From positions 1-42,906 of the forward strand of contig NZ_NCJH01000026.1 of the NCBI RefSeq assembly GCF_002278925.1: a DNA stretch of 42,906 nt, given 5' to 3'. A model generated the notes under the pieces. That model worked only from the letters and a program-made list of their open reading frames with translations, did not search any database and was not told the DNA's origin. Below, piece after piece: positions 4,117-25,763 of the stretch; within the stretch, counting starts at the first letter, position 1, and every line of letters starts with the position of its first letter. Position numbers and translations under genes: made by a program. This DNA comes from Polaromonas sp. 39-63-25 (GTDB lineage Bacteria > Pseudomonadota > Gammaproteobacteria > Burkholderiales > Burkholderiaceae_C).

Positions 4117-5379
4117 CTATGCTGGTCTGGATCGCAAGTCCTCAATCAGCTTGCCATCCATGGGCAAGCTACCGTGCTTCACGAGCTGGACATCGCCGCG
4201 CAACTTAGTCACGTCACGCATAGCAGTCTCAAGGAGGGCCCGCAATCCTTCGTCAGCAGGAGCTTCCTTGATTTCCGCATGCAGACACATCTGATCGTTG
4301 GCCATCTCGCCACTGACCACGAGTCGCGCGCGAAGAATCTCGGGGAAACGGCGCACGATCTCGGCCACTTGAGCGGGATGCACGAACATGCCCTTGACCT
4401 TGGTGGTCTGGTCCGCACGGCCCATCCAGCCCTTGATGCGCGGAGCGGTGCGCCCGGTGGGGCAGGGGCCCGGCAGCATGGCCGAGAGGTCGCCGGTGCC
4501 GAAGCGGATCAGCGGGTAGGCCGGATTGAGCGTGGTCACCACCAGTTCGCCCACTTCACCCTCTGGCACGGGATCGCCCGTGCCGGGCCGCACGATTTCC
4601 ACGATCACGCCTTCGTCCAGCACCAGGCCTTCGCGTGCAGCGGTCTCATACGCCACCAGCCCCAAGTCGGCGGTGGCGTAGGTCTGGTACACGGCCACAC
4701 CCTGTTGTTTGAACCAGGCGGTCAGGCTGGGTGGGCAGGCCTCACCGCCGACCGATGCCTTGGTCAGGCTGTGGATGTCGGTACCGGTTTCCACGGCTTT
4801 CTCGATCAGGATGCGAAGAAAGCTGGGTGTGCCGGTGTAGCCGTTGGGCTGCAGTTCGGTGATCGCATCGAGCTGCTGTTCGGTCTGGCCAGTGCCGGCC
4901 GGGAACACCGTGCAGCCCACGGCGTGGGCACCGGACTCCAGGATGAATGCGCCTGGCGTCATGTGGTAGCTGAAGGCGTTGTGCACCAGCTCGCCGGACC
5001 GGAACCCGGCGGCGTACAAGGCACGCCCGGCGCGCCAGTAGTCGCGCGTGCTGCCTTCGGGTTCGTAGATGGGGCCGGGGGAGGCGAACACCCGTGACAT
5101 CTGGGGGCCGCGCACCAGCGCAGAAAATCCCCCGAAAGGATCGCTCCCTGCCTCACGCGAGGCATTCTGCCGCTCCAGCAACTCGCTCTTGCGCGTCACG
5201 GGCAATCGGGCCAGGGCCTCACGGCTGTTCACATCGGCCGCGCGCACGCCATCGAGGATGCCCGCGTACGCCGCACTGTGTGCCTGTGCATGCGCCACCT
5301 GACCCGCCAGCGAAGCCATCAGCTCGGACTCACGCTGGTCAGGTGAGCGGGTTTCCAGTGCGTCAAAGTAGTCGGTCAT
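4117..5379 (-). CDS. Phenylacetate-CoA ligase-like AMP-forming acyl-CoA ligase (PaaK family)
   Basis: The 420-residue protein has the compact architecture of PaaK-type ligases, which adenylate a carboxylic acid and pass it to CoA. Visible marks are the TGTPSFL segment, VGGEACPPSL, the adenine-pocket-like YATADLG, and the RFGTGDLSA and GRADQTTKVKGMFVHPAQV segments that lead into the small C-terminal domain. Family length is about 400 to 440. It sits between livF and the adenosyltransferase gene on the same strand. Genes of this type often accompany branched-chain-type ABC transporters for aromatic or short organic acids. The substrate cannot be read from the sequence. Phenylacetate is only the family name, and a branched short-chain acid is possible here. 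The ATG at 5379 has no strong ribosome-binding site. Confidence 0.88.
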   Translation of the reverse strand: MTDYFDALETRSPDQRESELMASLAGQVAHAQAHSAAYAGILDGVRAADVNSREALARLPVTRKSELLERQNASREAGSDPFGGFSALVRGPQMSRVFASPGPIYEPEGSTRDYWRAGRALYAAGFRSGELVHNAFSYHMTPGAFILESGAHAVGCTVFPAGTGQTEQQLDAITELQPNGYTGTPSFLRILIEKAVETGTDIHSLTKASVGGEACPPSLTAWFKQQGVAVYQTYATADLGLVAYETAAREGLVLDEGVIVEIVRPGTGDPVPEGEVGELVVTTLNPAYPLIRFGTGDLSAMLPGPCPTGRTAPRIKGWMGRADQTTKVKGMFVHPAQVAEIVRRFPEILRARLVVSGEMANDQMCLHAEIKEAPADEGLRALLETAMRDVTKLRGDVQLVKHGSLPMDGKLIEDLRSRPA

Positions 5380-5497: not shown

Positions 5498-6307
5498 CTA
5501 AGCCAACCAGCGTTTCCGGCGCTTGTAGCTCTTCACATCCTTGAAGCTCTTGCGTTCCCCCCCGCCCATGCCCAGGTAGAACTCCTTCACGTCTTCGTTG
5601 TTGCGAAGGTCTTCGGCCGCACCGTCCATCACGATCCGGCCCGACTCCATGATGTAGCCGTAATCCGCATAACGCAGCGCCATGTTGGTGTTCTGCTCGG
5701 CGAGCAGGAAGGTGACCTTTTCCTTGGTGTTGAGGTCTTTCACGATCTCGAACACTTCTTCCACGATCTGCGGCGCCAGGCCCATGGAGGGTTCGTCGAG
5801 CAGCATCACGCTGGGGTTGGTCATCAGGGCACGACCGATGGCGCACATCTGCTGCTCGCCGCCCGAGGTGTAGGCCGCCCGCGAGGTGCGGCGCGTCTTC
5901 AGGCGAGGGAAGTAGTTGTAGACCTTCTCCAGGTTCGCCGCGATCTCGCCCTTGTCCTTGCGGGTGTACGAGCCGGTGAGCAGGTTCTCTTCGATGGTGA
6001 GGTGGGCAAAGCAGTGCCGTCCTTCCATCACCTGCACCACCCCCCGGTTCACCAGATCGGCCGGCGTGAGGTTTTCAATGCGTTCGCCGCGCAGTTCAAT
6101 GCTGCCCTTGGTCACCTCCCCCCGCTCGGCCCTGAGCAGGTTGGAGATGGCACGCAGCGTGGTGGTCTTGCCGGCCCCGTTGCCACCCAGCACCGCCGCG
6201 ATCTTGCCCTGAGGCACGTTGAGCGAAACGCCCTTGAGCACCAGGATGACGTGGTTGTAGATGACCTCGATGCCGTTGACGTTGAGAACAATGTTGGGAG
6301 TACTCAT
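5498..6307 (-). CDS. livF: Branched-chain-type ABC transporter ATP-binding protein (LivF-like)
   Basis: This is one of the two ATPases of a HAAT-family importer. It has Walker A GGNGAGKTT near residue 40, the signature SGGEQQMCAIGRAL, Walker B VMLLDEPSMG, and the switch region LLAEQNTNMAL. LivF differs from LivG by this short QN(T)NMAL form. At 269 residues it is longer than typical LivF (about 235) because of a basic C-terminal tail. I chose the ATG at 6307, preceded by AAGGAA, over a longer frame that would begin at 6340. It lies between the substrate-binding protein gene and the PaaK-like ligase. The transporter probably imports the acid that the ligases activate. Confidence 0.95.
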   Translation of the reverse strand: MSTPNIVLNVNGIEVIYNHVILVLKGVSLNVPQGKIAAVLGGNGAGKTTTLRAISNLLRAERGEVTKGSIELRGERIENLTPADLVNRGVVQVMEGRHCFAHLTIEENLLTGSYTRKDKGEIAANLEKVYNYFPRLKTRRTSRAAYTSGGEQQMCAIGRALMTNPSVMLLDEPSMGLAPQIVEEVFEIVKDLNTKEKVTFLLAEQNTNMALRYADYGYIMESGRIVMDGAAEDLRNNEDVKEFYLGMGGGERKSFKDVKSYKRRKRWLA

Positions 6308-6507
6308 GTGTGTTCCTTCTGAGCCTTCGTTGAAGACCATTCACAAGACACGGCACGCCGGCCTTGTGAATGGCAGCTCGATTCAGTTGCTGGGGAAAGC
6401 CCCGCCGCAAATGCAGGCCCCTTCAAGGGATACCGCCGGACGGCGGGCACCGCCCCCAGGAGGAGGTAGCGCGCCGCAGGGGGCGCGGAGGTGGGTGAAG
6501 TTCCAGG

Positions 6508-7836
6508 TCAGGACTGGCAATCCGCAGGTGTGCGGCGCGTCAGCTTCTTCTCGCCTGCATACTTCTCCACGGCAGCTTTGAGCAGGGGCGTCAAAATTTT
6601 CGTATCGGCCTCAAGCCAGTCAGAGCTGGTTTCCCAACTTTTGCCGTTCCATGTGTACGCCCTCGCATACGACGGGCCCATGTGATCTTTGCAACTCGTG
6701 ACCACCGGCCGCATTACATCATCAAGGCCAAGCAACTGCAGCCGATTCTCATCGATGTTGAGGTTCTCATAACCCCAACGCGTTTGCGCAGCATTCATAA
6801 CCTGACCCTTCCCAAACTTCTCTTGTGCCCGCCAAACTCCCTCGACTGCTAGCATCGCATTCATGAGTCCCCTCATATACAGAGCGGACCCGACTTCATC
6901 CTTTGGCCCAGCCCCCTCTCCCTTGGCATGCAAGGTCGACAGCACCTCTTTTGCAATTTTTGAGTCGAAACCAGGGCCTGGCAAAACCAAGACTGCGCTG
7001 TACCCGTCTGCACCAGACACGCCTTTGACATCCGAGTCCGACCCAGAAGGCCACACACCCACGATTCGATCACGCCGAAACCCCGTAGATTGCGCCTCTT
7101 TTAATGCAGTCGAGTTCATCACTCCCCAACCCCAAAGGAGCACGTAGTCTGGTCTAGCCTGGCGTATTTGCAGCCACGCTGCTTTTTGGTCCACCCCGGG
7201 GTGTGACACCGGAATCGCTACGAGATCAAATCCGTGTTCCTTTGAACGCGCATTCATTACTGGAATTGCCTCTTTCCCGTAAGGACTGTCGTGATAGAGC
7301 AAGGTGATCTTTTTCCCCTTGAGCTTGTCTAACCCCCCGACCTTTTGACCCAGATATTGAATCTGCGTGTCAGCAGAGGTCCAGTGTGAGCCTGCGATTG
7401 GGAAACTCCACTTGAACACTTGTCCATCGGCGCTTTCGCTCAGGCCGTAGCCAGGTGTGAGTATGGGAATACCATCTGCCGCACCGCGCTCAGTCAAAGC
7501 CAAGGTGATACCTGTCGACATGGTCTGAAACACGGTGGCGCCACCATTCTTCCTCTTCAGACGTTCGTAGCATTCGACGCCACGATCAGTTGCATAGCCG
7601 GTTTCACATTCCTCCCAGAGAACGCTGACGCCGTTGATCCCTCCCTTCGCATTTACAAGCTTGAAGTAATCGACAAACCCATTGGCCCAAGGTGTTCCAC
7701 TAGGAGCGTACGGTCCTGTGCGAAAAGTTAGAAGTGGGAAAAACTGTTGCTTCTCCTGCGCGAAGCTGGTTACTGCGAAGCTGCCAAAAACGATTGCCGA
7801 AGCTGCGATTGCGATGATGCGACTTTTCGCGGTCAT
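6508..7836 (-). CDS. ABC transporter substrate-binding protein (branched-chain amino acid/organic acid type)
   Basis: The 442-residue precursor has a Sec signal peptide, with a basic start, a hydrophobic core and the probable cleavage site SFA-QE near residue 26. A periplasmic-binding-protein type I fold follows, with the segments FVDYFKLVNAKGGINGV, LLYHDSPYGKE and YVLLWGWGVMNSTALKE. It would bind the substrate in the periplasm and deliver it to LivH/LivM. The ATG at 7836 has GGAGAAC just before it. Base use differs from the neighbours: the gene body is near 50% G+C where sampled (for example 7201-7260), while livM next to it is about 67%. This suggests the gene was acquired or exchanged separately. 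The ligand is unknown. Confidence 0.93.
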   Translation of the reverse strand: MTAKSRIIAIAASAIVFGSFAVTSFAQEKQQFFPLLTFRTGPYAPSGTPWANGFVDYFKLVNAKGGINGVSVLWEECETGYATDRGVECYERLKRKNGGATVFQTMSTGITLALTERGAADGIPILTPGYGLSESADGQVFKWSFPIAGSHWTSADTQIQYLGQKVGGLDKLKGKKITLLYHDSPYGKEAIPVMNARSKEHGFDLVAIPVSHPGVDQKAAWLQIRQARPDYVLLWGWGVMNSTALKEAQSTGFRRDRIVGVWPSGSDSDVKGVSGADGYSAVLVLPGPGFDSKIAKEVLSTLHAKGEGAGPKDEVGSALYMRGLMNAMLAVEGVWRAQEKFGKGQVMNAAQTRWGYENLNIDENRLQLLGLDDVMRPVVTSCKDHMGPSYARAYTWNGKSWETSSDWLEADTKILTPLLKAAVEKYAGEKKLTRRTPADCQS

Positions 7837-7901: not shown

Positions 7902-8978
7902 TCAGTGCGGAAAGGGCCACAACCGCAACTTCTGTTTGGCGATGCTCCACAGCTTGGCCAGCCCATGGGGCTCCACGATGAGGAACCAGACGATGAGCGC
8001 ACCGAAGACCATGAACTCGATGTGCGAAATGGCAGCGGTGGAAATGGACAGACCCACCAGGCCGCCCAGCCAGGGCAGGAACTGGTTCAGGAAGATGGGC
8101 AGCACCACAATGAAGGCGGCGCCGAAGAAACTGCCCATGATCGAGCCCATGCCACCGATGATCACCATGAACAGCAGCTGGAACGAACGGTCGATGGAGA
8201 AGGAAGCCGGCTCCCACGAGCCCAGGTGAACAAAGCCCCACAAGCCACCGGCCACGCCGATGATGAAGGAGCTCACAGCGAAGGCGCTGAGCTTGGCGTA
8301 CATGGGGCGGATGCCGATCACGGCGGCGGCCACGTCCATGTCGCGAATGGCCATCCACTCGCGGCCAATGGCGGAGCGCACCAGATTCTTGGCCAGCAGT
8401 CCGAACACCACCAGGAACCCCAGGCAGAACAGGTATTTCTCCACCGGGGTGTTGATGGTCCAGCCCAGCACGTTGAGGTTGGACACCGACACCGAGCCCG
8501 AGGATGTGTTGTTGGTGAACCAGCCGATGCGCAGGAAGGCCCAGTCGCAGAAGAATTGCGCGGCCAGCGTGGCCACCGCCAGGTAAAGGCCCTTCACACG
8601 AAGACTGGGGATGCCAAAGAACATGCCCACCAGCGTGGCGAAGAAACCCCCGGCCAGCAGTGCCACGATCAGCGGCATGCCCTCGATGCGGATATAGGTG
8701 TTGTAGGCCATGTAGGCGCCCACCGCCATGAAGGCGCCTGAGCCCAGGCTGATCTGCCCGCAGTAGCCCACCAGGATGTTCACCCCCAGCGCCACCAGCG
8801 CCAGGATCAGGAACGGAATCAGGATGGCGCGGAACATGTATTCATCGACCAGCAGCGGCACGCCAACGAATGCGAAGGCGATCAAGGCCAGGATGAGCCA
8901 GCGGTCCTGCGCGATCGGGAAGATCTGCTGGTCGGTGCGGTAGGAGGTCTTGAACTGACCGTTTTCTCTGTAGAACAT
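7902..8978 (-). CDS. livM: Branched-chain-type ABC transporter permease (LivM-like)
   Basis: The 358-residue membrane protein has about ten hydrophobic segments. It contains the LivM signature regions NILVGYCGQISLGSGAFMAVGAY near residues 84-106 and RDMDVAAAVIGIRP, the cytoplasmic loop that contacts the ATPases. Length fits LivM. The ATG at 8978 is preceded by AAGGAA. It pairs with LivH, encoded 153 bp upstream, to form the transmembrane channel. The gap between the two holds a copy of the intergenic repeat. Confidence 0.95.
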   Translation of the reverse strand: MFYRENGQFKTSYRTDQQIFPIAQDRWLILALIAFAFVGVPLLVDEYMFRAILIPFLILALVALGVNILVGYCGQISLGSGAFMAVGAYMAYNTYIRIEGMPLIVALLAGGFFATLVGMFFGIPSLRVKGLYLAVATLAAQFFCDWAFLRIGWFTNNTSSGSVSVSNLNVLGWTINTPVEKYLFCLGFLVVFGLLAKNLVRSAIGREWMAIRDMDVAAAVIGIRPMYAKLSAFAVSSFIIGVAGGLWGFVHLGSWEPASFSIDRSFQLLFMVIIGGMGSIMGSFFGAAFIVVLPIFLNQFLPWLGGLVGLSISTAAISHIEFMVFGALIVWFLIVEPHGLAKLWSIAKQKLRLWPFPH

Positions 8979-9034
8979 CCGATTTTTCCTTTGTCTCAGC
9001 CTATCCGGCGAGAAGTGACTCGTCCCTGGCTTCC

Positions 9035-9122: not shown

Positions 9123-9131
9123 GCTTCATCT

Positions 9132-10061
9132 CTAGACGCGGTCAATGATTTTTTCGCCGAACAGACCTTGTGGCCGGAACAGCAGAAAGACGAGTGCGAG
9201 CACATACGCAAACCAGATCTCGATGCCACCGCCCACGTAAGGGCCCAGGTACACCTCGGAGAGTTTTTCCCCCACACCGATGATCAGGCCGCCGATGATG
9301 GCGCCGGGTACCGAAGTCAGGCCGCCCAGGATGATCACGGGCAGGGCGCGAAGCGCCACCGTGGTCAGCGAAAACTGCACGCCCAGCTTGGAGCCCCAGA
9401 TCACACCAGCCACCAGCGCGGTGATGCCGGCCACGAACCACACGATCACCCAGATGCGGTTGAGTGGAATACCGATGGATTGGGCCGCCTGGTGGTCGTC
9501 GGCGACCGCGCGCAGCGCGCGGCCAGTGCCTGTCTTCTGGAAGAACAGCGAGAGCACGATCACCAGCAGCGCGGCCACGCAGGCGGCATACACGTCTTCC
9601 AGATTGATCAGCACACCACCTTCGAAAACGCCCTCGAACAGGAACACCGGATCCTTGGGCATGCCCACGTCGATCTGGTAAATGTCGCTGCCAAAGATGG
9701 TCTGGCCCAGGCCGTCGATGAAGTAGGTGATGCCCAGCGTGGCCATCAGCAGGGTCACGCCTTCCTGATTCACCAGGTGTCGCAACACCAGTCGCTCAAT
9801 CAGCCAGGCCATCACGAACATGAGGGCCGCTGCCACAACAAAGGCCAGCGCGTTGCCCAGGAACTTGTCCTCGATGCCGAGCCACTCGGGAATCCAGGTC
9901 GAGAAGCGGGCCATGGCCAGGGCGGCAAAGAGCACCATCGCCCCCTGGGCAAAGTTGAACACGCCCGACGCCTTGAAGATGAGCACGAAGCCCAGCGCCA
10001 CCAGCGAATAGAGCATGCCGGCCATGAGGCCGCCGAACAAGGTTTCAAGAAAGAACGCCAT
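9132..10061 (-). CDS. livH: Branched-chain-type ABC transporter permease (LivH-like)
   Basis: The 309-residue inner-membrane protein has eight or nine hydrophobic segments. It shows the LivH marks GLMAGMLYSLVALGFVLIFK at the N-terminus, the NFAQGAMVLFAA segment, and the ATPase-contact loop RALRAVADDHQAAQSIGI. The ATG at 10061 follows a GGGAGA at a good distance. The gene lies 160 bp downstream of livG, with an inverted copy of the intergenic repeat in that gap. Together with LivM it forms the membrane part of the importer. Confidence 0.95.
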   Translation of the reverse strand: MAFFLETLFGGLMAGMLYSLVALGFVLIFKASGVFNFAQGAMVLFAALAMARFSTWIPEWLGIEDKFLGNALAFVVAAALMFVMAWLIERLVLRHLVNQEGVTLLMATLGITYFIDGLGQTIFGSDIYQIDVGMPKDPVFLFEGVFEGGVLINLEDVYAACVAALLVIVLSLFFQKTGTGRALRAVADDHQAAQSIGIPLNRIWVIVWFVAGITALVAGVIWGSKLGVQFSLTTVALRALPVIILGGLTSVPGAIIGGLIIGVGEKLSEVYLGPYVGGGIEIWFAYVLALVFLLFRPQGLFGEKIIDRV

Positions 10062-10103
10062 GGTGGTTATCTCCCCCCCGTTGCTTGTTCATTGCGCGTG
10101 GCC

Positions 10104-10154
10104 TCATCCCCGCTTGAGGGGGCGATGTCTGTGGGCCCGCAAAGCCGGTTCCAC
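10104..10154 (-). repeat. Intergenic repeat copy 3, inverted
   Basis: The core at 10131-10154 is the reverse complement of the core of copies 1 and 2 with a few changes, and the CCCCGCTTGAGGGGG palindrome lies beside it. It occupies the livG-livH gap in the opposite orientation. Confidence 0.7.
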
Positions 10155-10221
10155 GACATCTGTGGAAGTGGCTTCTTCATGCGACGGTTTGTGGTTTTCT
10201 GCTGCATGGTGGTGATGTCCA

Positions 10222-11007
10222 TCAATGAGAGGTTCCGAGGTAGGCGCTGATCACCTCCTCGTTGTTGCGCACCTCTTCAGGTGTGCCGTCGCCGATCTTC
10301 TTGCCGTAGTCGAGCACCACGACGCGGTCGGAGATGTCCATGACCACACCCATGTCGTGTTCGATCAGCACGATGGTGGTGCCGAACTCGTCGTTCACGT
10401 CCAGGATGAAGCGGCTCATGTCCTGCTTCTCTTCCAGGTTCATGCCGGCCATGGGTTCGTCGAGCAACAGCACCTGCGGCTCCATCGCCAATGCGCGCCC
10501 AAGGTCCACGCGCTTCTGCAGGCCATAGGGCAACTGGCCCACCGGTGTCTTGCGGTGCGCCTGGATTTCGAGGAAATCGATGATGTGTTCGACGTACTCG
10601 CGGTGCTGCTCTTCTTCGCGCTGGGCCGGGCCAATGCGCAGTGCCTGCAGGAACAGGTTGCTCTTGATGCGCAGGTTGCGGCCCGTCATGATGTTGTCGA
10701 TCACGCTCATGCCTTTGAACAGCGCCAGGTTCTGGAAGGTGCGGGCGATGCCCATCTCGGCCACCTGCCGGCTGTTCATGTGCTTGAAAGTTTGGCCACG
10801 GAAGTTGATCGAACCCTCTTGCGGCTGGTAAACGCCGTTGATGCAGTTGAGCATCGAACTCTTGCCTGCACCGTTGGGTCCGATGATGGCGCGCACCTCG
10901 TGTTCGCGCACATCGAAGCTGATGTCGGTCAGTGCCTTGACGCCACCAAAGCGCAGGCTGATGTTGTGGACGTCCAGAATGACGTCGCCTATCTTCTTCT
11001 GGGTCAT
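10222..11007 (-). CDS. livG: Branched-chain-type ABC transporter ATP-binding protein (LivG-like)
   Basis: The second ATPase of the importer has 261 residues. It has Walker A GPNGAGKSS near residue 43, the signature variant LPYGLQKRVDLGRAL, Walker B LLLDEPMAGMN, and the switch IEHDMGVVMDISDRVVVLDYG, which is the long LivG form. The start at 11007 has GGAG upstream. It lies 91 bp downstream of the long acyl-CoA ligase, and both probably belong to one minus-strand transcription unit running toward the adenosyltransferase. Confidence 0.95.
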   Translation of the reverse strand: MTQKKIGDVILDVHNISLRFGGVKALTDISFDVREHEVRAIIGPNGAGKSSMLNCINGVYQPQEGSINFRGQTFKHMNSRQVAEMGIARTFQNLALFKGMSVIDNIMTGRNLRIKSNLFLQALRIGPAQREEEQHREYVEHIIDFLEIQAHRKTPVGQLPYGLQKRVDLGRALAMEPQVLLLDEPMAGMNLEEKQDMSRFILDVNDEFGTTIVLIEHDMGVVMDISDRVVVLDYGKKIGDGTPEEVRNNEEVISAYLGTSH

Positions 11008-11098
11008 TCAAAACTCCGTTCGCACTGAGCCGGTCGTTGTGCTCGCGAGATGGGGGTGCGGTGGGCCAGTTCCAGCAAAGGCACGGGGGAGCGCCAGT

Positions 11099-13045
11099 TC
11101 ATGCCGCTGCCTTCACGGGAGTGAATGTCCTGGCGTCGCCCACCTTGAGCGTGGCGCTCACGCTGCCGGTGCGGCCATCCTCGAACTTCACCTTCGTCTC
11201 GATGTATTGTTCGGTCTTGCCACTGTAGAGAGCATCCACCAGCTCGCTGTACCGGTCGCCAATGAAGCCACGGCGGACCTTGTTGGTGCGGGTGAGTTCG
11301 CCATCGTCGGCGTCGAGTTCCTTGTGCAGTACCAGGAAGCGGCTGATCTGGCTGCCCGCCAGCAATTCGTCGCGGCTGAGATCGGCGTTGACTTTCTCTA
11401 CCCCCTGGCGCACCAGCTCATGCACCTCGGGCTTTTGCGCCAGATCGGTGTAGCCGGCGTAGGGCAGGTTGCGCCGTTCGGCCCAGTTGCCCACGGCTTC
11501 AAAATCGATGTTGATCATCACGCACACTTTCTCGCGCTGGTCGCCATAGGCCACGGCTTCCTTGATGTGCGAGAAGAACTTGAGCTTGTTTTCCACGTAC
11601 TTGGGCGCGAACATCGCACCGTCGTGCGCGCCGCCCTTGATGCGGCCCACGTCTTTCACGCGGTCGATGATCTTCAGGTGACCCGATGCGTCGATGAAGC
11701 CAGCGTCGCTGGTGTGGTACCAGCCGTCGGCCGTGAGCACTTCGGCCGTGGCTTCCGGGTTCTTGTAGTAGCCCTTGAGCAGGCCGGGCGACTTCACCAG
11801 GATTTCCCCAGTCTCAGACAGTTTGATTTCCACGCCTTCGCAAGGCACACCCACGGTGTCGGCCCGGGCTTCGTTGTCGGGCTGCAGGCACACGAACACC
11901 GCGGTTTCGGTGGAGCCGTAGAGCTGCTTGAGGTTGATGCCGATGGAGCGGTAGAAGCTGAAGAGATCAGGGCCGATCGCCTCTCCGGCGGTGTAGGCCA
12001 CGCGCACGCGGCTGAAGCCCAGGCTGTTGCGCAACGGGCCGTACACCATGGCGTTGCCCAGCGCGTATTTAATCGAATCCACCAGCCCGACCGGTTTGCC
12101 GTCGAGCTTGTCCGGGCCCACGCGGCGTGCAACATCCATGAAGTAGTGGAACATCTTGCGCTTGATCAGGCCGGCGTCTTCCATGCGGATCATCACCGTG
12201 GTGAGCAGGCCTTCGAACACGCGCGGTGGCGCGAAGTAGTAGGTAGGCCCCACTTCCTTGAGGTCGATGGTGACGGTGGCGCCTGATTCCGGGCAGTTCA
12301 CCACGTAGCCGGCCACCAGCCATTGAGCGTACGAGAAGATGTTCTGGCCGATCCAGGCAGGGGGAAGATATGCAAACACCTCCTCTTTGTTGGTCAACCG
12401 GTCAAAGTTTGCGCCTGCATGGGCCCGATCAATCAATGTTCGGTGCGTGTGCATCACTCCCTTAGGGTTGCCGGTGGTGCCTGAAGTGAAAAACATCGCG
12501 GCCACGTCGTCGGGGCTGGCCATGGCCACCTGCTCGCGGAACACCTGCGGGTGCAGCTTGGCAAAGGCCTCGCCTGCGGCCATCAGTTCCTCCAGCGAAC
12601 TCAGGCCGGGCTGGTCGTAGTTGCGCAGGCCGCGAGGGTCGTCGAAATAGATGTGGGCGAGTTGCGGGCAGCGGTCGCGGATCTCCAGCATCTTGTCGAC
12701 CTGCTCCTGGTCTTCCACCACAGCGAAGCGCACGTCGGCATCGTTCACTGGGAAGACGTATTCGGCGCCCACCGCGTCCTGGTACAGCGGCACCGGAATG
12801 GCACCGATGGACTGCGCCGCCAGCATGGTGGCGTACAGACGCGGACGGTTCGCGCCGATCACCACCATGTGCTCGCCGCGCTGCAGGCCGGCCTGGTGCA
12901 GGCCACAGGCGATAGCCTCCACCAGACTGGCCATCGCAGCCCAGGTGGTGGTCTGCCAGATGCCGTATTCCTTCTCGCGCATGGCGGGATGGTTACCTCG
13001 CTCTGCGGCCTGCTTCAACATTAGTCTAGGGAATGTCGAGTTCAC
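11099..13045 (-). CDS. AMP-dependent long acyl-CoA synthetase/ligase
   Basis: The 648-residue enzyme forms an acyl-AMP and then the acyl-CoA. It shows the P-loop-like AMP motif MFFTSGTTGNPKGVMHTHR, the adenine motif LKQLYGSTETAVFVC, and YHTSDAGFIDASGHLKIIDRVKD. Its size and order of motifs fit the FadD15/long-chain-like branch. A GTG at 13045 with AAGGAC before it is the best start. An ATG at 13021 (Met9) is possible. It is the first gene of the minus-strand series and diverges from the isovaleryl-CoA dehydrogenase gene 211 bp away. Its real substrate may be a fatty, aromatic or branched acid. The sequence does not settle this. Confidence 0.9.
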   Translation of the reverse strand: MNSTFPRLMLKQAAERGNHPAMREKEYGIWQTTTWAAMASLVEAIACGLHQAGLQRGEHMVVIGANRPRLYATMLAAQSIGAIPVPLYQDAVGAEYVFPVNDADVRFAVVEDQEQVDKMLEIRDRCPQLAHIYFDDPRGLRNYDQPGLSSLEELMAAGEAFAKLHPQVFREQVAMASPDDVAAMFFTSGTTGNPKGVMHTHRTLIDRAHAGANFDRLTNKEEVFAYLPPAWIGQNIFSYAQWLVAGYVVNCPESGATVTIDLKEVGPTYYFAPPRVFEGLLTTVMIRMEDAGLIKRKMFHYFMDVARRVGPDKLDGKPVGLVDSIKYALGNAMVYGPLRNSLGFSRVRVAYTAGEAIGPDLFSFYRSIGINLKQLYGSTETAVFVCLQPDNEARADTVGVPCEGVEIKLSETGEILVKSPGLLKGYYKNPEATAEVLTADGWYHTSDAGFIDASGHLKIIDRVKDVGRIKGGAHDGAMFAPKYVENKLKFFSHIKEAVAYGDQREKVCVMINIDFEAVGNWAERRNLPYAGYTDLAQKPEVHELVRQGVEKVNADLSRDELLAGSQISRFLVLHKELDADDGELTRTNKVRRGFIGDRYSELVDALYSGKTEQYIETKVKFEDGRTGSVSATLKVGDARTFTPVKAAA

Positions 13046-13256
13046 TGTTCTTCGTCCTTTGCAGCGTTTAACTGGCTAAACCACAGGAAGCTGCAGGCAA
13101 AGCAGTGATGTAGTCTGCACATTTTTATACCAAGCAAGCGTTAGTTTAGTATAGTCTGCTGTACGAGCTACTCGATGTCAATGACGAGAGGGGGTGGGAA
13201 TTCCCTACCCTGCTTGCGCAAGTACTTCTTTTGAAAAATGCTTTGGAAACCTGAAC
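13046..13256. promoter_or_regulatory. Divergent promoter region between acyl-CoA ligase and isovaleryl-CoA dehydrogenase
   Basis: This 211-bp gap must hold start signals for both directions. A TATAGT at 13150-13155 could serve as the -10 for the dehydrogenase, and TATAAA on the minus strand (13124-13129) as the -10 for the ligase. No good -35 was seen for either, which would suit activator control or a weak promoter. The octamer TAGTCTGC occurs twice, at 13111-13118 and 13152-13159. The operator-like half-site at 13131 lies between the two -10 candidates. Confidence 0.6.
13131..13149. promoter_or_regulatory. Operator-like half-site CAAGCAAGCG shared with the mutase promoter
   Basis: CCAAGCAAGCG at 13130-13140 is identical over 11 bases to the left arm of the palindrome in the mutase promoter at 20235. 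The right arm here (TTAGTTTAG) is degenerate. This suggests a second, weaker site for the same regulator, plausibly the TetR protein encoded at 15153. The match is seen directly; regulator identity is inferred. Confidence 0.5.
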
Positions 13257-14435
13257 ATGCAGCTGCCCGGCCTCAACTTCCAGCTCGGTGAAGACATCGA
13301 CGCCCTGCGCGATGCGGTGCGCGACTTCGCCCAGGCCGAAATCGCGCCACGCGCGGCCGAGATCGATCGCAGCGACCAGTTCCCCATGGACTGCTGGCGC
13401 AAGATGGGTGAGCTCGGTGTGCTGGGCATCACCGTGCCCGAAGCAGACGGCGGGGCCGGCATGGGCTACCTGGCGCACATGGTGGCCATGGAAGAAATCA
13501 GCCGGGCCAGCGCTTCAGTGGGCCTGAGTTACGGTGCGCACAGCAACCTGTGCGTGAACCAGATCAACCGCAATGGCTCGCTCGAGCAGAAGGCCAGGTA
13601 CCTGCCCAAGCTGATCAGCGGCGAACACGTGGGTGCGCTGGCCATGAGCGAGCCGGGCGCGGGCTCCGACGTGATCAGCATGAAGCTGAAGGCCGAAGAC
13701 AAGGGTGGGTTCTACCTGCTCAACGGCAGCAAGATGTGGATCACCAACGGGCCGGACGCTGACACGCTGGTGGTCTACGCCAAGACCGAGCCCGAATTGG
13801 GCGCGCGCGGCGTGACGGCCTTCCTGATAGAGAAGGGCATGAAGGGCTTCAGCATCGCGCAGAAGCTGGACAAACTGGGCATGCGCGGCAGCCACACCGG
13901 CGAGCTGGTGTTCAACAACGTGGAAGTGCCGGCAGAAAACATCCTCGGTGGCCTGAACATGGGCGCCAAGGTACTGATGAGTGGGCTGGACTATGAACGC
14001 GCGGTGCTCACCGGCGGGCCACTGGGCATCATGCAGTCGGTGATGGACAACGTGGTGCCTTACATCCACGACCGCAAGCAGTTCGGCCAGAGCATTGGTG
14101 AGTTCCAGCTGATCCAGGGCAAGGTGGCCGACATGTACACCGTGCTGCAAGCGGCGCGCAGCTTCGCCTACACCGTGGCCAAGAACCTGGACCTGCTGGG
14201 CACCGACCACGTGCGCCAGGTGCGCAAGGACTGCGCATCCGTGATTCTCTGGACCGCCGAGAAGGCCACCTGGATGGCGGGTGAGGGGGTGCAGATCTTC
14301 GGGGGCAACGGCTACATCAACGAGTATCCGCTGGGCCGCCTCTGGCGCGATGCCAAGTTGTACGAGATCGGCGCCGGTACCAGCGAGATCCGCCGCATGC
14401 TGATCGGGCGTGAGCTTTTTGCCGAAACCTGCTAG
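13257..14435 (+). CDS. ivd: Isovaleryl-CoA dehydrogenase
   Basis: The 392-residue flavoprotein oxidises isovaleryl-CoA to 3-methylcrotonyl-CoA and passes electrons to ETF. Acyl-CoA dehydrogenase marks are [11 protein letters not shown] near residue 129 and [17 protein letters not shown]. Two features point to the isovaleryl-specific branch. The catalytic Glu is on helix G in [14 protein letters not shown] (Glu247, matching the human enzyme's Glu254). The usual C-terminal position reads [12 protein letters not shown], with Ala where medium-chain enzymes have the Glu base. I chose the ATG at 13257 rather than the longer frame from 13194 because family alignments start near MQLPGLNF. It is divergent from the ligase. 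No liuB/C/D/E genes follow, so the rest of leucine-type degradation must be encoded elsewhere. Confidence 0.93.
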
Positions 14436-15152
14436 TTTGCATACCCTAGAGTTGAATCCGCCCTGCATAAAACCAAACTGGATCCAACAAACAACCTGAT
14501 GGTGAAGGATCCTATGCGAACCAATACCAGACCGCTGCAAGTGCGAGCGGCAATGCCCCACGCGAAGCAGCCTACCAATGCGGACTAGCCACTGCCTCGT
14601 AAGCGATCCTGATACCAACGAGCCGTTTCAATGGGACGAACTCGAAATCAGAGTCCTTTCAACGACACAAGGGCTATTTTTCTGATTGAGAACCGCTGTC
14701 GTCGGCAATTGACAGCCATGAATAAGCAAGTGGAATAGCTGCTGAAAAGCAAGTTGTACTTATTGATAACAATGCACTTGAAATGTCACTAACTGGACCG
14801 CATATGGCACATTTGCGTTAAGGCGAGGTACAGCGACGGAATTTAGGCGCCATCATCAACCCAGCAAAAGACGTGGAGGAGCAATTAACAATTTCATTTC
14901 GTCGAGTGCCTATGGTCACTTGCAGTGCGAACGAATAGTCTACGACAGACCGATAAAAAAATGAGCACGTACCTAAGGAATCATTCCAAGGTGAATCGGG
15001 TAAAGCACAGCAGTTTCAAACTATGGCGAAGGATGAAAAACTCGAGACAAAAAGAACCACCAATGCCACTCCCTCGACAATGACAGAGATAGCAGCTCAC
15101 CTCCATGCAATAGGCTAGAGATAGAAACACACTACTAAATCCCAATCATTTT
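14436..15152. other. Gene-free, lower-G+C stretch
   Basis: These 717 bases between the convergent ends of the dehydrogenase and TetR genes hold no supported gene on either strand, and I see no clear terminator. Base composition is visibly lower in G+C than the dehydrogenase gene and matches the TetR and mutase side, so a composition boundary lies close to 14440. Confidence 0.5.
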
Positions 15153-15749
15153 CTATTCCATCGTGCAAGATGCATTTTTCAAGAGTTTCACGAATTCAGA
15201 GGCAATGGCAGCCGGTGTGTCCTGCCCAGGTCGGTACCAAATTCGAGACCAATTAAGTGCACCCAGAAGCAGCAATCTTAAAGATTTCCTCGGAATATCA
15301 GACGGCAGCGGCAGATCCTCAATAGCCTTTACAAAGATCATCTCGTATCTATCACGTAATTCTGTGAGCCTTGTCGATTCACTGGGGACATCTTCGGGCA
15401 TTATTTTGGTAATAACTTGTGCATAATTGTTGTCAACGAGAATGGCCTGAAGGTGGGCTGCACATGCACTCTCCAAGCGAACCCAGGGATCCGACTCACC
15501 CACTAGCGCTTGGTCAACAACATCTATAACGTGCTGCACGCCCACCTTGTAAACTGCAACAAGAAGGTCTTCCTTGGATGGAAAGTGGCAGTAGAGAGAG
15601 CCAGAAGGCATACCGAGTGACCCCATGATGTCTCGTGTAGAAGTGCCTCCATAGCCATTGGCAGCGAAAAGCTCCGCCGCCTTATCCAAGATCTGCGGCA
15701 ACCTACTAACCTGACCACTCGTTTTCTTTGCCATTTCTGTATTGTTCAT
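15153..15749 (-). CDS. TetR-family transcriptional regulator
   Basis: The protein has about 198 residues from the chosen ATG at 15749. The N-terminal DNA-binding domain is clear: ILDKAAELFAANGYGGTSTRDIMGSLGMPSGSLYCHFPSKEDLL is the TetR helix-turn-helix in standard order. The C-terminal ligand-binding domain is typical in length but not recognisable by ligand. Alternative starts are an ATG at 15788 and one at 15734 (MAKKT); none has a strong ribosome-binding site. It lies between the dehydrogenase gene and the mutase operon and is the only regulator in the catabolic block. I infer that it controls both through the CAAGCAAGCG-type sites. Such TetR proteins usually repress until an acyl-CoA binds. 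Confidence 0.9.
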   Translation of the reverse strand: MNNTEMAKKTSGQVSRLPQILDKAAELFAANGYGGTSTRDIMGSLGMPSGSLYCHFPSKEDLLVAVYKVGVQHVIDVVDQALVGESDPWVRLESACAAHLQAILVDNNYAQVITKIMPEDVPSESTRLTELRDRYEMIFVKAIEDLPLPSDIPRKSLRLLLLGALNWSRIWYRPGQDTPAAIASEFVKLLKNASCTME

Positions 15750-15754
15750 GGTAA

Positions 15755-15768
15755 AGACAGTTATGTCT
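15755..15768. promoter_or_regulatory. Small inverted repeat just upstream of the TetR start
   Basis: AGACA and TGTCT flank a GTTA spacer, six bases before the chosen start codon. It could be an autoregulatory site, but it differs from the CAAGCAAGCG-type operator and would lie inside the gene if the 15788 start is real. The support is weak. Confidence 0.3.
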
Positions 15769-15788
15769 CCATAACATCCTACCACCAT

Positions 15789-16389
15789 CCCAGTAGAACC
15801 TACGACCGTCAGAGTAGAACACTCCTCGGCACAGGGGTGGTATGTATCCTGTCTTGTGGGTCATCGAAACCATGTGAATCATGGCCACTACAAGAACACA
15901 AATGCCCGGCGGACGAGTACGACCGCAGCTGCTACTTGAAAAGCATGAGCACCTCATCCCAATATCAGTTGGGCAGTCCCGCAGAAGTTCAAGTTTACGC
16001 ACGGGGTATTGCTTGACATCCTGAATCGAGTAACAACTGAAAAGGATGCATACAGACTACCAGCCCTGCAGTTATCTGCCCGCGCGCATCTACACAGAAT
16101 TGCTTAGCAATTCGTGTTGGGATAATTTGATCACCTGAACATTCATGAGCCGAGAATCGTTTTCTGGTTTGGGGCCTCGTCCGCTCAAAGACAACAAATG
16201 TCGATTTAAGGATGGTAGCCTGGCCAAATATTTAGGCCATCAATAAATATCCGTGCAATCCAACAATTACACGAAACAGCCACGCCGAGTCAACCATTGA
16301 ACTTTCTGATGTAATAGCGAAATTTAACTCTTCGCGTATCGAGGCGTTCAAAACCCTAAAGCTTTAATCAATTCCTTACACATAGGCCT
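15789..16389. other. Gene-free, low-G+C stretch between the mutase operon and TetR gene
   Basis: About 600 bases lie downstream of the orphan gene at 16390 and upstream of the TetR gene. Short frames exist, but none is supported by a start signal or recognisable sequence. The one notable element is the palindrome at 16097-16113, listed separately. Confidence 0.45.
16097..16113. promoter_or_regulatory. Perfect 17-base palindrome, operator-like
   Basis: GAATTGCT and AGCAATTC flank a single central T, giving perfect 8-base arms. A one-base centre cannot form a stable hairpin loop, so this looks like a protein-binding site rather than a terminator. It lies about 350 bases upstream of the TetR start in an otherwise gene-free region. 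Its binder is unknown. Confidence 0.4.
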
Positions 16390-16737
16390 TTAACCTCCAA
16401 GCCTATTTCTATGCTTCTTACGCGAATACTCTTGCGCTTTCAAGAACTCTGAATGCAACTTCGAGTCCTCGCCAGACGCCACAACATTCCAACAGTAGGT
16501 CCAATGCACTTCCTCGATAGGGGCTCCAAGTTCAGCGGCCTCTTTAAGACGAAAAACAGCCAATCGGCGATGCTTGAACTTGATGCTTCGATCAAGAAAT
16601 GCCAATGCAATCGCCTGACTCTGGAGTTGGAGCGCGGGTGAGGCGCCAGTGCCGCTGCCCTGCCGTGCGAGGCGCTTGAGAGATCGGAGCCGCCGACGGC
16701 CCCGGCCATGCAGTGGTCCTTCTGAGAGCATACTCAT
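16390..16737 (-). CDS. Uncharacterised protein, last gene of the mutase operon
   Basis: This frame codes for 115 residues. Its ATG at 16737 overlaps the stop of the MeaB-thioesterase gene in an ATGA, which suggests translational coupling. The first 25 residues are Arg-rich. The middle reads as helical (AIALAFLDRSIKFKHRRLAVFRLKEAAELGA), with some resemblance to a tetratricopeptide-type helix pair, and the end is Lys/Arg-rich. I do not recognise a family. Its position after a mutase and its chaperone hints at a role in mutase handling, but that is a guess from context. It could also be a chance frame, since no independent start signal is present. Confidence 0.5.
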   Translation of the reverse strand: MSMLSEGPLHGRGRRRLRSLKRLARQGSGTGASPALQLQSQAIALAFLDRSIKFKHRRLAVFRLKEAAELGAPIEEVHWTYCWNVVASGEDSKLHSEFLKAQEYSRKKHRNRLGG

Positions 16738-17936
16738 GGCAGTTCAATGCCTTGTGGCACTTCCACCGGCTTGTCCAGCACGTAGACAGTTCCATGTAAA
16801 AGCGCAATATGTTCGTTATCACGCGCACGTGTGATTTGAACCTGATAGCTGCCGATTTTTCGCGATCGTGACACTTCTTGCGCATGGGCCACAAGCCACT
16901 CGCCCTCTTCAACCGCAGTTGAGATGCTCAATTGTCCATCGACTAGGGTGGCTATCCTTCCGTACGAATTGCAGGCTAGACCGAGTGCCATATCGCCCAA
17001 TGCAAACAGCGCTCCTCCATGGCATCGATTGTTGAAATTCATGTGAATTCGCTGCGTCTTCATTCGAAGTGTGGTGCTGCCCTTTGACGCGGAGACAAGT
17101 TCAATGCCGAGCAACTGGGCCATGTTGTCGCCCTCGATGCACTGGGAAACCAGGTTGTAAGCTGTCCTAGCGCCACCTTCCGCGTGGCGACGCCCGCGTT
17201 CACTTCGGGCATCAAGCCAATCAACCAGCGCATCTGTTCCTTCTTCACTTGGAGCAGACACGCATTTGACTTCTATCGCCGCACCCTTTGATCGCCTCAG
17301 AGACAACATGGCAAGTAGCTCGGATTCGGTCTTGCGTGCGTCAGGTAGATCAGCCTTAGTCACTACAAAAACATCCGCGATTTCCAGCATGCCTGCTTTT
17401 ATCGCTTGCACGTCATCTCCGAGTCCAGGTGGACAAACCACGACACGTGTGTCTGCAAAGCGTGTAATTTCTACCTCCGATTGGCCCGCGCCTACAGTCT
17501 CGACGATCACGACATCGAAGCCGGCCGCATCGAAGAGGTCGATCACATCGCCGGCGGAAACGGAGAGACCACCGAGATGGCCGCGAGAAGCCAACGACCG
17601 GATGAATACACCTTCATCACTTTGACGTTCACCCATGCGAATGCGGTCCCCAAGGACTGCTCCTCCAGTAAATGGGCTTGAGGGGTCGATAGCGACTACT
17701 GCGACAGTTCTCCCCTTTTTTCTCAACCCTTTTATCAGCACAGATACCAGAGTGGACTTCCCGCCACCTGGTGGCCCCGTCACGCCGATCACGTGCGCAC
17801 GTCCCTGAGATTTCGCGATGGCGCGGCGCACCTCGTATGCTGTCTCGCCGCCGTTCTCCAGCGCACTTATCGCTTGCGCGATTGATCGGCGATCGCCTCC
17901 CATTGCTTTCTGAATGTTCATGTTGCTCATATCCAT
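16734..17936 (-). CDS. MeaB-type G-protein chaperone fused to a PaaI-like hotdog thioesterase
   Basis: The protein has 400 residues in two parts. Residues 1 to about 255 are a MeaB/ArgK GTPase with P-loop GPPGGGKS at 54-61, IDPSSPFTGGAVLGDRIRM, switch region ETVGAGQSE near 146-154, and TKAD at 193-196. MeaB proteins gate cofactor loading and protect B12-dependent acyl-CoA mutases. Residues about 262-395 are a hotdog-fold domain with CHGGALFALGDMALGLACNS at 305-324, the PaaI-type active-site region; such enzymes hydrolyse acyl-CoA. The usual C-terminal MeaB dimerisation arm seems replaced by it. The ATG at 17936 overlaps the mutase stop as TGATG, so it is translationally coupled. The fusion is in a single intact frame. 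Confidence 0.9.
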   Translation of the reverse strand: MDMSNMNIQKAMGGDRRSIAQAISALENGGETAYEVRRAIAKSQGRAHVIGVTGPPGGGKSTLVSVLIKGLRKKGRTVAVVAIDPSSPFTGGAVLGDRIRMGERQSDEGVFIRSLASRGHLGGLSVSAGDVIDLFDAAGFDVVIVETVGAGQSEVEITRFADTRVVVCPPGLGDDVQAIKAGMLEIADVFVVTKADLPDARKTESELLAMLSLRRSKGAAIEVKCVSAPSEEGTDALVDWLDARSERGRRHAEGGARTAYNLVSQCIEGDNMAQLLGIELVSASKGSTTLRMKTQRIHMNFNNRCHGGALFALGDMALGLACNSYGRIATLVDGQLSISTAVEEGEWLVAHAQEVSRSRKIGSYQVQITRARDNEHIALLHGTVYVLDKPVEVPQGIELP

Positions 17937-19597
17937 CAGACCACAGTAAGAGGTTGCCCGAAACCCATTTCTCTCCGAAGAGTGCCGCATATCTCTCCGT
18001 GGGTTGCACCAACTTCGGCGGCCGCAACAACGTGTTCAAACACATTGGACTTGATATTGTTTGCCGATTTGGCTAGTGCACTAATAGCCTTTTCCACATC
18101 GTCTTTGGAACGAGATTTCTTGAAGTCGGCAAGACGCCGCAAGTACGACTTCATGCGCTCTGCATCGGGGTATTCCAGCGACGGATAAGTAACAGGATCT
18201 TCCTCGACTTGGTAGGCGTTGACACCCACAATGGTCTGTTCACCAGCATCTACCTTCCTCTGGAATGCCAACGCAGACTCACCAATCATTCGCTGAACGA
18301 TTCCCTTTTCGACTGCTTGGTACATGCCGCCTGCTTCGTCAATCATTGAGATTATCTCGTTAATCTTCATCTCAATGTCGTCGGTTAGCGACTCTACGTA
18401 ATACGAGCCTCCTAACGGATCGATGACGTCTGTCAGATGCGCCTCTTCCCGCAGGATATTCTGCGTAGCGACCGCGATCCGGGCTGCTTCAGCGGTGGGT
18501 GTTGAGAACGCCTCGTCGTAGCCGTCCGTGTGGAGAGACTGCAGGCCACCGAAGATTCCAGCCATTGCTTGTGCCGTGACTCGAGCAACGTTGTTAAGCG
18601 GCTGCTGTCGTGTTAGGTCTACGCCCGAGGTTTGCCCATGGAACTTGAAGCGCCAGGAGCGTGGGTCCTTGGCGCCGAAGCGATCTCTACATAGTCGAGC
18701 CCAAACTCGTCGGCCGGCTCGAAATTTGGCTACTTCCTCAAAGAAACTGATAGAAATGTCGAAAAAGAAGGTGAAACGCGGAAGAAACTGGTCTGGGTCC
18801 ATGCCGGCTGCGATGCAGTCTTCAGCGTACTGGATACCTGAGCAGAGCGTGAAGGCCATAGCTTCAGCCGGGGTTGCGCCTGCTTGCTGCATGTGTTGCC
18901 CGACGATCGATAGTGGGTTCCATCCCGGCACATGCTTATTCACGAAAGCAATGTGGTCCACGATCACCCGGCGCGCGCCCTGTAACGCCAGGCGAAAGAA
19001 CATGTGATTGGCTACGAAATGCGAAATGCAGTCGCTCTGATTTGAGGTGCCGGTGATCTTGGACCAAGGTACCCCACGTCTCTTGGCCACACCCAATTCA
19101 AAGGCGAGCAAAGTGAAAGGTGACGGGTCATTCATTGCAGTGGATAGGTCGCCAATGGGGACACCGTCCAGTGCGACACCCATGTCTTCCACATGATTAA
19201 TGACTGTTCCACAAGTACCAAGGAGCTCCGACGGCACTTCGTCAGCGTCGTAGCCTCGAAACACTGAGTTGCAGGGAATGAGCGACAGGGCGGACGCGCC
19301 CAATTCGAGAATTTCCTTGACCCGGAGGTTGTAATCCTCGGGCACTCCCAGCCCGATGAGCTGGCGCTGGGACCAACTACGGCCCCGGTACATGGTGGCA
19401 TAGATGCCACGGGTATATGGGTACTGCCCGGGGTAACCCAGCGTTTCCTCGTACTGCGTACCTTTTGTATCTTGCGGCGTATATAGGGGCCTTATGCCAA
19501 CCCCTGATCGGTTGTAAATAGTTGTTGCGCCCACTACGCTCTTGGCGAAATCGGCTTCCCAGCGAGCTTGCCCCTTGGAAGTTTGCTCTTTGTTCAT
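17936..19597 (-). CDS. B12-dependent acyl-CoA mutase, large catalytic subunit (not a methylmalonyl-CoA mutase by active-site residues)
   Basis: The 553-residue subunit is the TIM-barrel half of a two-subunit adenosylcobalamin mutase, without its own B12 domain. Conserved parts include [13 protein letters not shown] near 63-75, the [10 protein letters not shown] segment with His235 (His244 of Propionibacterium methylmalonyl-CoA mutase), and the [10 protein letters not shown] segment. The residue matching Tyr89 is Leu80, and the one matching Arg207 is Ala196 or Asn197 depending on one gap, so the carboxylate-binding pair of methylmalonyl-CoA mutase is missing. The Asp117 of 2-hydroxyisobutyryl-CoA mutase is also absent (IPCNSVF instead). 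With isovaleryl-CoA dehydrogenase nearby, pivalyl-CoA/isovaleryl-CoA mutase is a serious candidate. The ATG at 19597 overlaps the small-subunit stop and has AAGGAG upstream. Confidence 0.92.
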
Positions 19598-20016
19598 AGT
19601 GACGCTCCTTGCAATGTACGGCGCTTCTCACATAGTGATCGCACCGAAAGAACGACATCGTCCAAAGATGTGCCAGGATGAAATACCTGCGCTACACCGC
19701 ATTCCAGAAGCATCTTTTCGTCTTTTGCGGGAACGATACCGCCAACGATAACCTGTACATCGGACAGTCCAGCCTCGCGAAGCGCAGCAAGCAGCTTTGG
19801 CACTATTAGGTGATCTGTTGCCAGCGATGAAATGCCTATAACGTCTGCATCCTCTTCCATAGTGAGTTTGACGACCGTCGGTATCTCTTGCCACGGCGGG
19901 GTGTAAATCACTTCCATTCCTGCATCGCGGAGACATGCAGCGATCACCCTGCTACCCCGGTCATGCCCATCAAATCCAATTTTCGTCACGATCACCCTCG
20001 GTGGACGTTCAGCCAT
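19594..20016 (-). CDS. B12-dependent acyl-CoA mutase, small cobalamin-binding subunit
   Basis: The 140-residue protein is a stand-alone B12-binding domain. It has the DxHxxG motif as DGHDRG at 16-21, with His18 the expected lower cobalt ligand. It also has the ISSLATDH segment and [11 protein letters not shown] near residues 89-99, which hold the nucleotide tail of the cofactor. It pairs with the large subunit encoded directly downstream, whose ATG overlaps its TGA in an ATGA. It is the first gene of the mutase operon. The ATG at 20016 follows AAGGAA. A two-gene alpha/beta arrangement is known for isobutyryl-, 2-hydroxyisobutyryl- and pivalyl-CoA mutases and archaeal methylmalonyl-CoA mutases. 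Confidence 0.95.
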
Positions 20017-20227
20017 TTCGTAATTCCTTTTCTAGCCCCCACAAACCTTCGCTCGAGGACGCGTGGGGAGTCGCGACCTTCGGGGTGGAACCATTTCATT
20101 GCCCAGCTGTATGGCCCGCGGAGAACATCCATTTCAGAACCCCCCAGCAGGCGGCAAGAATGCAAGTCAGGTGACTCACGTGCAGGCGTTGAACATGGGC
20201 TTTCACTTGTGTACAAGAAAGTGGATC

Positions 20228-20256
20228 ATTATTCCAAGCAAGCGCTCGCTTGTCTA
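20228..20256 (-). promoter_or_regulatory. Mutase operon promoter with operator palindrome inside the spacer
   Basis: On the minus strand a -35 TAGACA (20251-20256) and a -10 AATAAT (20228-20233) are separated by exactly 17 bases. That spacer is filled by a near-perfect palindrome at 20235-20252, CAAGCAAGC and GCTCGCTTG, with a single pair of mismatched positions. A bound protein would block RNA polymerase, so repression is the likely mode. A second short palindrome, CTTGT-GT-ACAAG, lies just downstream at 20206-20217. The leader to the first ATG is about 200 bases. I saw no B12-box and no cobalamin riboswitch in it. Confidence 0.75.
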
Positions 20257-20679: not shown

Positions 20680-20712
20680 GAATCCTGTCTCAAACCTGCT
20701 TGGGAGATGACC

Positions 20713-21339: not shown

Positions 21340-21351
21340 GGCAAGACCGCC

Positions 21352-23966: not shown

Positions 23967-23978
23967 GTCCTCGCCCCT

Positions 23979-25753: not shown

Positions 25754-25763
25754 CGCCGTACCC

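Follow-up and report, generated by a model that had tools for sequence, protein, structure and literature searches.

The contig NZ_NCJH01000026.1 of Polaromonas sp. 39-63-25 (42,906 nucleotides, analysed as a whole and called the window here; contig C17 of a genome of 4.83 Mb in 54 contigs) carries a gene cluster around a two-subunit B12-dependent acyl-CoA mutase. We read this cluster as a probable catabolic regulon for pivalate, in which pivalyl-coenzyme A (CoA) would be rearranged to isovaleryl-CoA, and we give this reading a probability of about three in four. Quaternary-carbon acids resist beta-oxidation, and a complete regulated gene set would offer a genetic way of testing how pivalate is broken down by bacteria. 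The type of mutase is already known. The shared operator-like sites and a fusion of the chaperone MeaB with a thioesterase appear to be new, as we found no description of them.

The mutase and its closest known relatives

The sequence-only reading had proposed a two-subunit B12 mutase, and PF01642 and PF02310 indeed match in two adjoining minus-strand genes (17936-20016). The large subunit (17936..19597; PF01642, E 3.7e-166) belongs by its residues and its position in the tree to the type of Xaut_5043 from plasmid pXAUT01 of Xanthobacter autotrophicus Py2, and the small, B12-binding subunit (19594..20016; PF02310, E 3e-24) shows the motif DGHDRG (D16, H18, G21) and 66% identity to the Xaut_5044 frame. 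Separate genes for large and small subunits are what a pivalyl-CoA mutase requires. In the alignment Leu80 occupies the column of Tyr89 of methylmalonyl-CoA mutase (MCM), as had been claimed. For the column of MCM Arg207, which holds Gln in 2-hydroxyisobutyryl-CoA mutase (HCM) and in IcmF (fused isobutyryl-CoA mutase), two candidates had been offered, of which Asn197 stands (a HMMER alignment agrees) and Ala196 falls. The Asp117 of HCM is missing as stated, its column being filled by Ile107. This means that the two specificity columns read Tyr/Arg in MCM, Ile/Gln in HCM, Phe/Gln in IcmF and Leu80/Asn197 in the window, so that neither the pair Tyr89 and Arg207 of MCM (here Leu80 and Asn197) nor Ile90 and Asp117 of HCM (Leu80 and Ile107) nor the Phe and Gln of the IcmF taken for comparison as isobutyryl-CoA mutase (Leu80 and Asn197) is present. 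Additionally, the FD pair of the other compared mutases is replaced by PC (Pro108, Cys109). The pattern is highly conserved in the window and 80 related loci (81 rows, leaving out an 82nd, a second mutase in L048 with the IcmF pattern): Leu80, Cys109 and His235 occur in all 81 rows, and Asn197, Ala196 and Pro108 in 80 each.

The phylogenetic reconstruction, based on 43 rows hand-picked out of 119, places the window mutase in a clade of 26 rows together with Xaut_5043 (support 100/100, 100% of 200 bootstrap trees), with the MCM, HCM and IcmF rows forming separate groups. The tree that had been suggested as a check thus joins the enzyme to Xaut_5043 and not to a mutase of other specificity. Identity of the large subunit amounts to 65% with Xaut_5043 and to 27-37% with MCM, HCM, IcmF, an unnamed Diaphorobacter mutase and an ethylmalonyl-CoA mutase candidate, the last being a single row assigned from its length and sitting on a very long branch. 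The closest relatives in the PDB are the 2-hydroxyisobutyryl-CoA mutase 4r3u (357 bits) and human MCM (354 bits).

The Xanthobacter mutase likewise consists of two genes (65-66% identity), and Xaut_5043 has the residues Leu80, Ala196, Asn197, Pro108, Cys109, Gln234 and His235 of the window enzyme without any exchange. We take Xaut_5043/5044 to be a proven pivalyl-CoA mutase. With this identification it fits that pXAUT01 carries two mutase genes, the second of which has the residues of HCM. Both loci contain genes for a TetR regulator, small and large subunits, MeaB, PaaI, a PaaK-like ligase, a further ligase and liv-type transport, and an adenosyltransferase (Xaut_5023) is found near the Xanthobacter locus. 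The two differ in that MeaB and PaaI are separate genes in Xanthobacter but fused in the window, and that the annotation of the Xanthobacter stretch of 41.6 kb lists no acyl-CoA dehydrogenase whereas the window unit includes an isovaleryl-CoA dehydrogenase (IVD). The HcmAB cluster of Methylibium petroleiphilum PM1, encoding a 2-hydroxyisobutyryl-CoA mutase, resembles the window in its split mutase, dedicated ligase, MeaB and adenosyltransferases but differs in its Ile/Gln/Asp117 pocket, a GntR regulator and only 36% identity. With IcmF the window has in common that the acyl-CoA mutase possesses its own G-protein chaperone, but IcmF is a single chain with a Phe/Gln pocket and 30% identity.

Pivalyl-CoA mutase activity of a Xanthobacter autotrophicus Py2 enzyme has reportedly been shown by Kitanishi et al. 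in J Biol Chem in 2015. A crystal structure of IcmF with pivalyl-CoA exists according to its entry title (5cjw), and the accessible parts of two papers report that IcmF interconverts pivalyl-CoA and isovaleryl-CoA (PMC10481361, PMC9974510), so the chemistry itself is already known. That pivalic acid may be degraded through rearrangement by a mutase had also been proposed, according to the accessible part of PMC2847961. Among the papers listed by a literature search that covered few subscription papers, none was recognised as describing the genes of the Xanthobacter enzyme, a gene cluster for pivalate or a fusion of MeaB with a thioesterase.

Gene order and shared operator-like sites

Transcription of the mutase operon on the minus strand follows the order small subunit, large subunit, MeaB-PaaI fusion (16734..17936), a gene for a protein of 115 amino acids (16390..16737) and a TetR-family regulator (15153..15788; PF00440, PF17932), and the stops and starts of the first four genes overlap consecutively. 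Facing the TetR gene, the IVD gene (13257..14435) lies on the plus strand. It is followed by a minus-strand series made up of a CoA ligase gene, the five genes of a Liv-type importer and genes for a PaaK-like ligase and for an adenosyltransferase of PduO type.

A 16-bp palindrome near AAACAAACGTTTGTTT connects these parts. Among 86 scanned loci 76 yielded an upstream region, and in 67 of these the palindrome occurs with a score of at least 8, compared with 1.2 per set in shuffled regions and 2.25 at random positions under the same matrix. This matrix had been derived from these 76 regions themselves and started from a seed word picked after viewing the window and its relatives. Refitting on shuffled regions gave only 19-25 of 76 versus the 67 real ones, and a matrix derived from one half of the regions found the palindrome in 32-34 of the 38 others versus 0-3 in their shuffles. 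The window, which contributed no counts to the matrix, has its two best matches in 42.9 kb at 13132 (score 16.8) and 20236 (13.8), the third reaching 7.8. Two of 300 dinucleotide shuffles had two sites of at least 13.7 and nine had one of 16.8, and after removal of the six nearest kin from the fit the window sites still score 16.8 and 13.4. The first site (13132..13147) is located in the intergenic region 87 bp from the start of the ligase gene and 110 bp from that of IVD, and the second (20236..20251) 220 bp 5' of the small subunit, inside a promoter-like hexamer pair (20256-20228). In the locus L026 of a Hydrogenophaga metagenome-assembled genome (MAG) the palindrome is found between divergent IVD and TetR genes. 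In 62 of 71 observable loci the mutase genes have a TetR homologue immediately 5' of them, and from position and conservation we infer that the TetR protein binds the palindrome. Since the two best sites lie 5' of the mutase operon and at the ligase operon and IVD, they tie IVD to the mutase and thereby add evidence for isovaleryl-CoA as product. The matrix could be used to find further members of the pathway. Near-matches were seen elsewhere in the genome (G000) at C31:410009, next to a carboxylase gene and a paralogue of TetR, and at C31:551209, next to a dehydrogenase near IcmF. They are perhaps sites of related regulators, though the looser pattern with one mismatch is unspecific.

The limits 13131..20256 proposed from the sequence alone match at their ends the two copies of the inverted repeat, but the unit is larger and extends over about 3476-20256, because it takes in the importer, both CoA ligases and the adenosyltransferase, as is the case in X. 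autotrophicus. All of the accessory functions named earlier (PduO adenosyltransferase, MeaB, two CoA ligases, importer, regulator) are present by family match. The AMP-forming ligase (11099..13045, minus strand as are the following; PF00501) shows 52% identity to the Xaut_5039 frame, and the PaaK-like ligase (4117..5379; PF00501, PaaK models matched below cut-off) 48% to that of Xaut_5040. The importer genes encode ABC ATPases of LivG type (10222..11007) and LivF type (5498..6340; PF00005), permeases of LivH type (9132..10061) and LivM type (7902..8978) and a LivK-type substrate-binding protein (6508..7836), with 67%, 68%, 63%, 57% and 51% identity, respectively, to their counterparts in the Xanthobacter locus. 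The adenosyltransferase (3476..4042; TIGR00636 over cut-off) is one of two found in the genome.

The identification of the dehydrogenase as IVD holds, both by bit scores (609 to the IVD 4kto and 519 to human IVD, with the next chain not named IVD at 299) and by the helix-G Glu247, which sits in LDYER aligned with LDLER of the human enzyme. At the usual base position of acyl-CoA dehydrogenases the window enzyme reads YEIGAGTSE and has no Glu, the roles of Glu247 and of this position being those we assume for the family. The gene had also been described as the adjacent divergent gene, but it is the ligase operon from which it diverges. A second IVD occurs on contig C32 (92% identity), and the window, C32 and L026 copies are about equally distant from each other (91.5-92.1%), so that the window copy may or may not stem from a recent duplication. 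About 20 kb from the C32 gene there is a gene 53% identical to a Sulfitobacter carboxyltransferase, which is perhaps the beta subunit of methylcrotonyl-CoA carboxylase (MCC). In two plasmids of the Sulfitobacter group (Sulfitobacter, Pseudosulfitobacter) the mutase operon is followed by genes for TetR, carboxyltransferase, crotonase, biotin carboxylase and acyl-CoA dehydrogenase. Judged by sequence comparison these downstream genes likely, though not certainly, encode MCC and 3-methylglutaconyl-CoA hydratase, i.e. steps past isovaleryl-CoA. The carboxyltransferase scores 585-588 bits against MCC beta, 427 against geranyl-CoA carboxylase and at most 260 against many propionyl-CoA carboxylases, the two chains mentioned below excepted.

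Taken together, a pathway can be proposed in which the Liv-type ABC importer would take up pivalate and one or both CoA ligases would form pivalyl-CoA. The adenosylcobalamin-dependent mutase, by analogy with its presumed Xanthobacter homologue, would convert it to isovaleryl-CoA in a pocket that Leu80 and Asn197 probably open up, the compared mutases carrying Tyr, Phe or Ile at the first of these positions and Arg or Gln at the second. IVD would then yield 3-methylcrotonyl-CoA, which could enter the leucine pathway; for the carboxylase a candidate gene is present elsewhere in the genome. The PduO enzyme would make adenosylcobalamin, the MeaB domain would load the cofactor, and the fused PaaI domain probably frees CoA from stalled acyl-CoA by hydrolysis. 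TetR is predicted to repress at the two palindromes until an accumulating acyl-CoA of the pathway allows expression of both operons and IVD.

Distribution and weighing of the readings

The closest mutase loci are from Hydrogenophaga (90-91% identity) and the best annotated relatives reside on plasmids, with six records of at least 60% identity among 426 matched. The scan of our genome collection yielded 280 relatives, and we retained 80 of them; thus the mutase family is widespread. Within the taxonomic family of the window a close match (E <=1e-140) was detected in 15 of 399 sampled genomes including the window's own, and none of the five other sampled genomes of the genus has one at this threshold. 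The mutase cluster is an accessory trait. Many loci are near kin, hence counts over loci do not represent independent events. The locus L020 from Diaphorobacter contains (27641-29691) a second two-subunit mutase with a Tyr/Arg pocket, together with a CoA transferase and an enoyl-CoA hydratase and 11 kb from the first, and similar mutases are found in Hydrogenophaga 2FB.

Several observations weigh against the assignment to pivalate. Among 45 loci with at least 8.5 kb on both sides a ligase or importer is linked to the mutase in only 12, an IVD of at least 60% identity in only two, and MCC-type genes in three (two near-identical plasmids and a third locus at 40-49% identity). From this rare linkage it would follow that most hosts use the leucine pathway encoded elsewhere. 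Nine of the 76 upstream regions have no palindrome, promoter-like matches in the region are not above those in shuffles (2 versus 4.4), and in the whole genome the one-mismatch pattern is not enriched over its reversed control (5 and 5 versus 5 and 6). For the ligases a profile search gave no match to a curated family fitting pivalate. The Sulfitobacter carboxyltransferase has its top scores with the acetyl-/propionyl-CoA carboxylase AccD1 (612 bits) and a propionyl-CoA carboxylase (596 bits), and it is because these two chains with propionyl-type names outscore MCC beta that we call the MCC reading likely and not certain; AccD1 of Mycobacterium tuberculosis, the 612-bit chain, is presumably itself an MCC subunit. 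The dehydrogenase of the Sulfitobacter-group cluster shares only 35% identity with the C32 IVD. Finally, the function of Xaut_5043/5044 as pivalyl-CoA mutase is itself presumed.

Of the other explanations we considered, the one that best survives holds that the in vivo substrate is a larger quaternary-carbon acyl-CoA, for which branched naphthenic or sterol side-chain acids are conceivable sources, and that pivalyl-CoA is only a side substrate. The small side chains of Leu80 and Asn197 and the exchange of FD for PC could admit more than a methyl group, and the acyl-CoA dehydrogenases present near the mutase in 17 of the 45 well-covered loci are mostly not IVD. An IVD with an operator-like site nevertheless belongs to the unit in both the window and L026, and we consider a larger substrate unlikely. 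That the enzyme works biosynthetically, from isovaleryl-CoA to pivalyl-CoA, is very improbable: B12 mutase reactions are reversible, but the adjoining importer, the two CoA ligases and IVD fit uptake and oxidation, and a Pfam scan of 20 window proteins revealed no acyl-chain or polyketide synthase. Assignment as methylmalonyl-, isobutyryl-, 2-hydroxyisobutyryl- or ethylmalonyl-CoA mutase, which could draw on the common superfamily and on 4r3u and human MCM as best PDB relatives, is extremely improbable, as tree and residues are unlike those of the MCM, HCM and IcmF rows. Moreover, two further mutase genes of the genome, one in a frame of 740 codons and one in a frame of 1113 codons that includes a MeaB part, are read by sequence as MCM and IcmF. 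For MCM, HCM and IcmF themselves, tree, residues and identity lead us to reject it.

The MeaB-thioesterase fusion and the flanking genes

The fusion protein was recognised by domain matches, alignment and a structural model. Its MeaB G domain, with matches to PF03308 and TIGR00750 above their cut-offs, extends to about residue 245. A PaaI-type hotdog domain comes next, which matches the PaaI model TIGR02286 below cut-off. MeaB and MMAA chaperones share the GTPase domain, but the fusion of the window has the PaaI-type domain in place of a dimerisation arm: in the alignment fused MeaBs are without the C-terminal segment that unfused relatives carry, and we have taken this segment to be the arm. 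According to the accessible parts of PMC9974510 and PMC10356863 the C-terminal arm of MeaB is the dimerisation element and hinge. An AlphaFold model (29 sequences, mean pLDDT 83.5) consists of G domain, linker and hotdog with no helices past the hotdog, and Foldseek matched it to MeaB and its second part to Escherichia coli PaaI with a TM-score of 0.96 by target length. H306, G307, G308 and D315 are invariant in 29 rows, which gives a hotdog with HGG and Asp; the roles of these residues we assume from PaaI-type enzymes.

The C-terminal part of MeaB varies among the relatives. Based on stop-to-stop frames, mostly from MAG contigs, and a BLAST limit of 1e-8 for PaaI, 77 MeaB open reading frames comprise 38 fused to PaaI, 24 of ordinary length (299-331 amino acids), three with a nitroreductase-like and two with a GalT-like part, three short ones (251-277 amino acids), six cut by contig ends and one stray second frame in L040. 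The nitroreductase-family domains are found in L050 (11706-13169), L052 (12102-13409) and L078 (1628-2932), those of L050 and L052 with weak matches to BluB. The GalT-like forms in L045 (8375-10195) and L047 (6120-7949) have about 350 extra residues, a part of which weakly matches GalT in L045 (E 2.5e-05), and L047 looks alike by eye. On a G-domain tree of 67 rows, from which eight cut or short rows were dropped, the PaaI label needs four changes, and three are forced by starred branches (five and three if the cut rows are kept).

Hotdog domains of PaaI type and nitroreductases are usually dimeric or assemble into larger oligomers, and could thus replace the MeaB arm. We tentatively suggest, without regarding it as probable, that the arm is an exchangeable slot for PaaI, nitroreductase/BluB-like flavin or GalT-like modules, where the new module assumes the role of dimerisation and adds a service such as clearing of stalled acyl-CoA or re-reduction of inactivated cobalamin. 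If so, a single protein would act as chaperone of a B12 enzyme and also provide its quality control. Fusions without the arm also probe current models of the dimerisation arm as chaperone hinge, as outlined in the accessible part of PMC10356863.

The start codon of the gene for the 115-residue protein and the stop codon of the fusion gene share an ATGA overlap. This helical protein gave no Pfam or NCBIfam match and its model no fold match at E <=0.001. Relatives occur in nine of 86 loci (L025, L026, L027, L028, L030, L031, L044, L093 and L097). They are located after the chaperone gene, except in L093 and L097, where they come after the importer genes. The G+C content differs from block to block (mutase genes 52-55%, TetR 48%, ligase-importer genes 61%, IVD 64%, right part of the window 65%), which suggests a mosaic origin. 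To the right a RES-domain gene is present within 20707-21984, and its neighbour of 210 amino acids (20707-21339) may be its partner. Genes for the conjugation proteins TraG, TraU and TraC follow at about 22446-31666, and their position beside the mutase operon suggests transfer by an integrative conjugative element.

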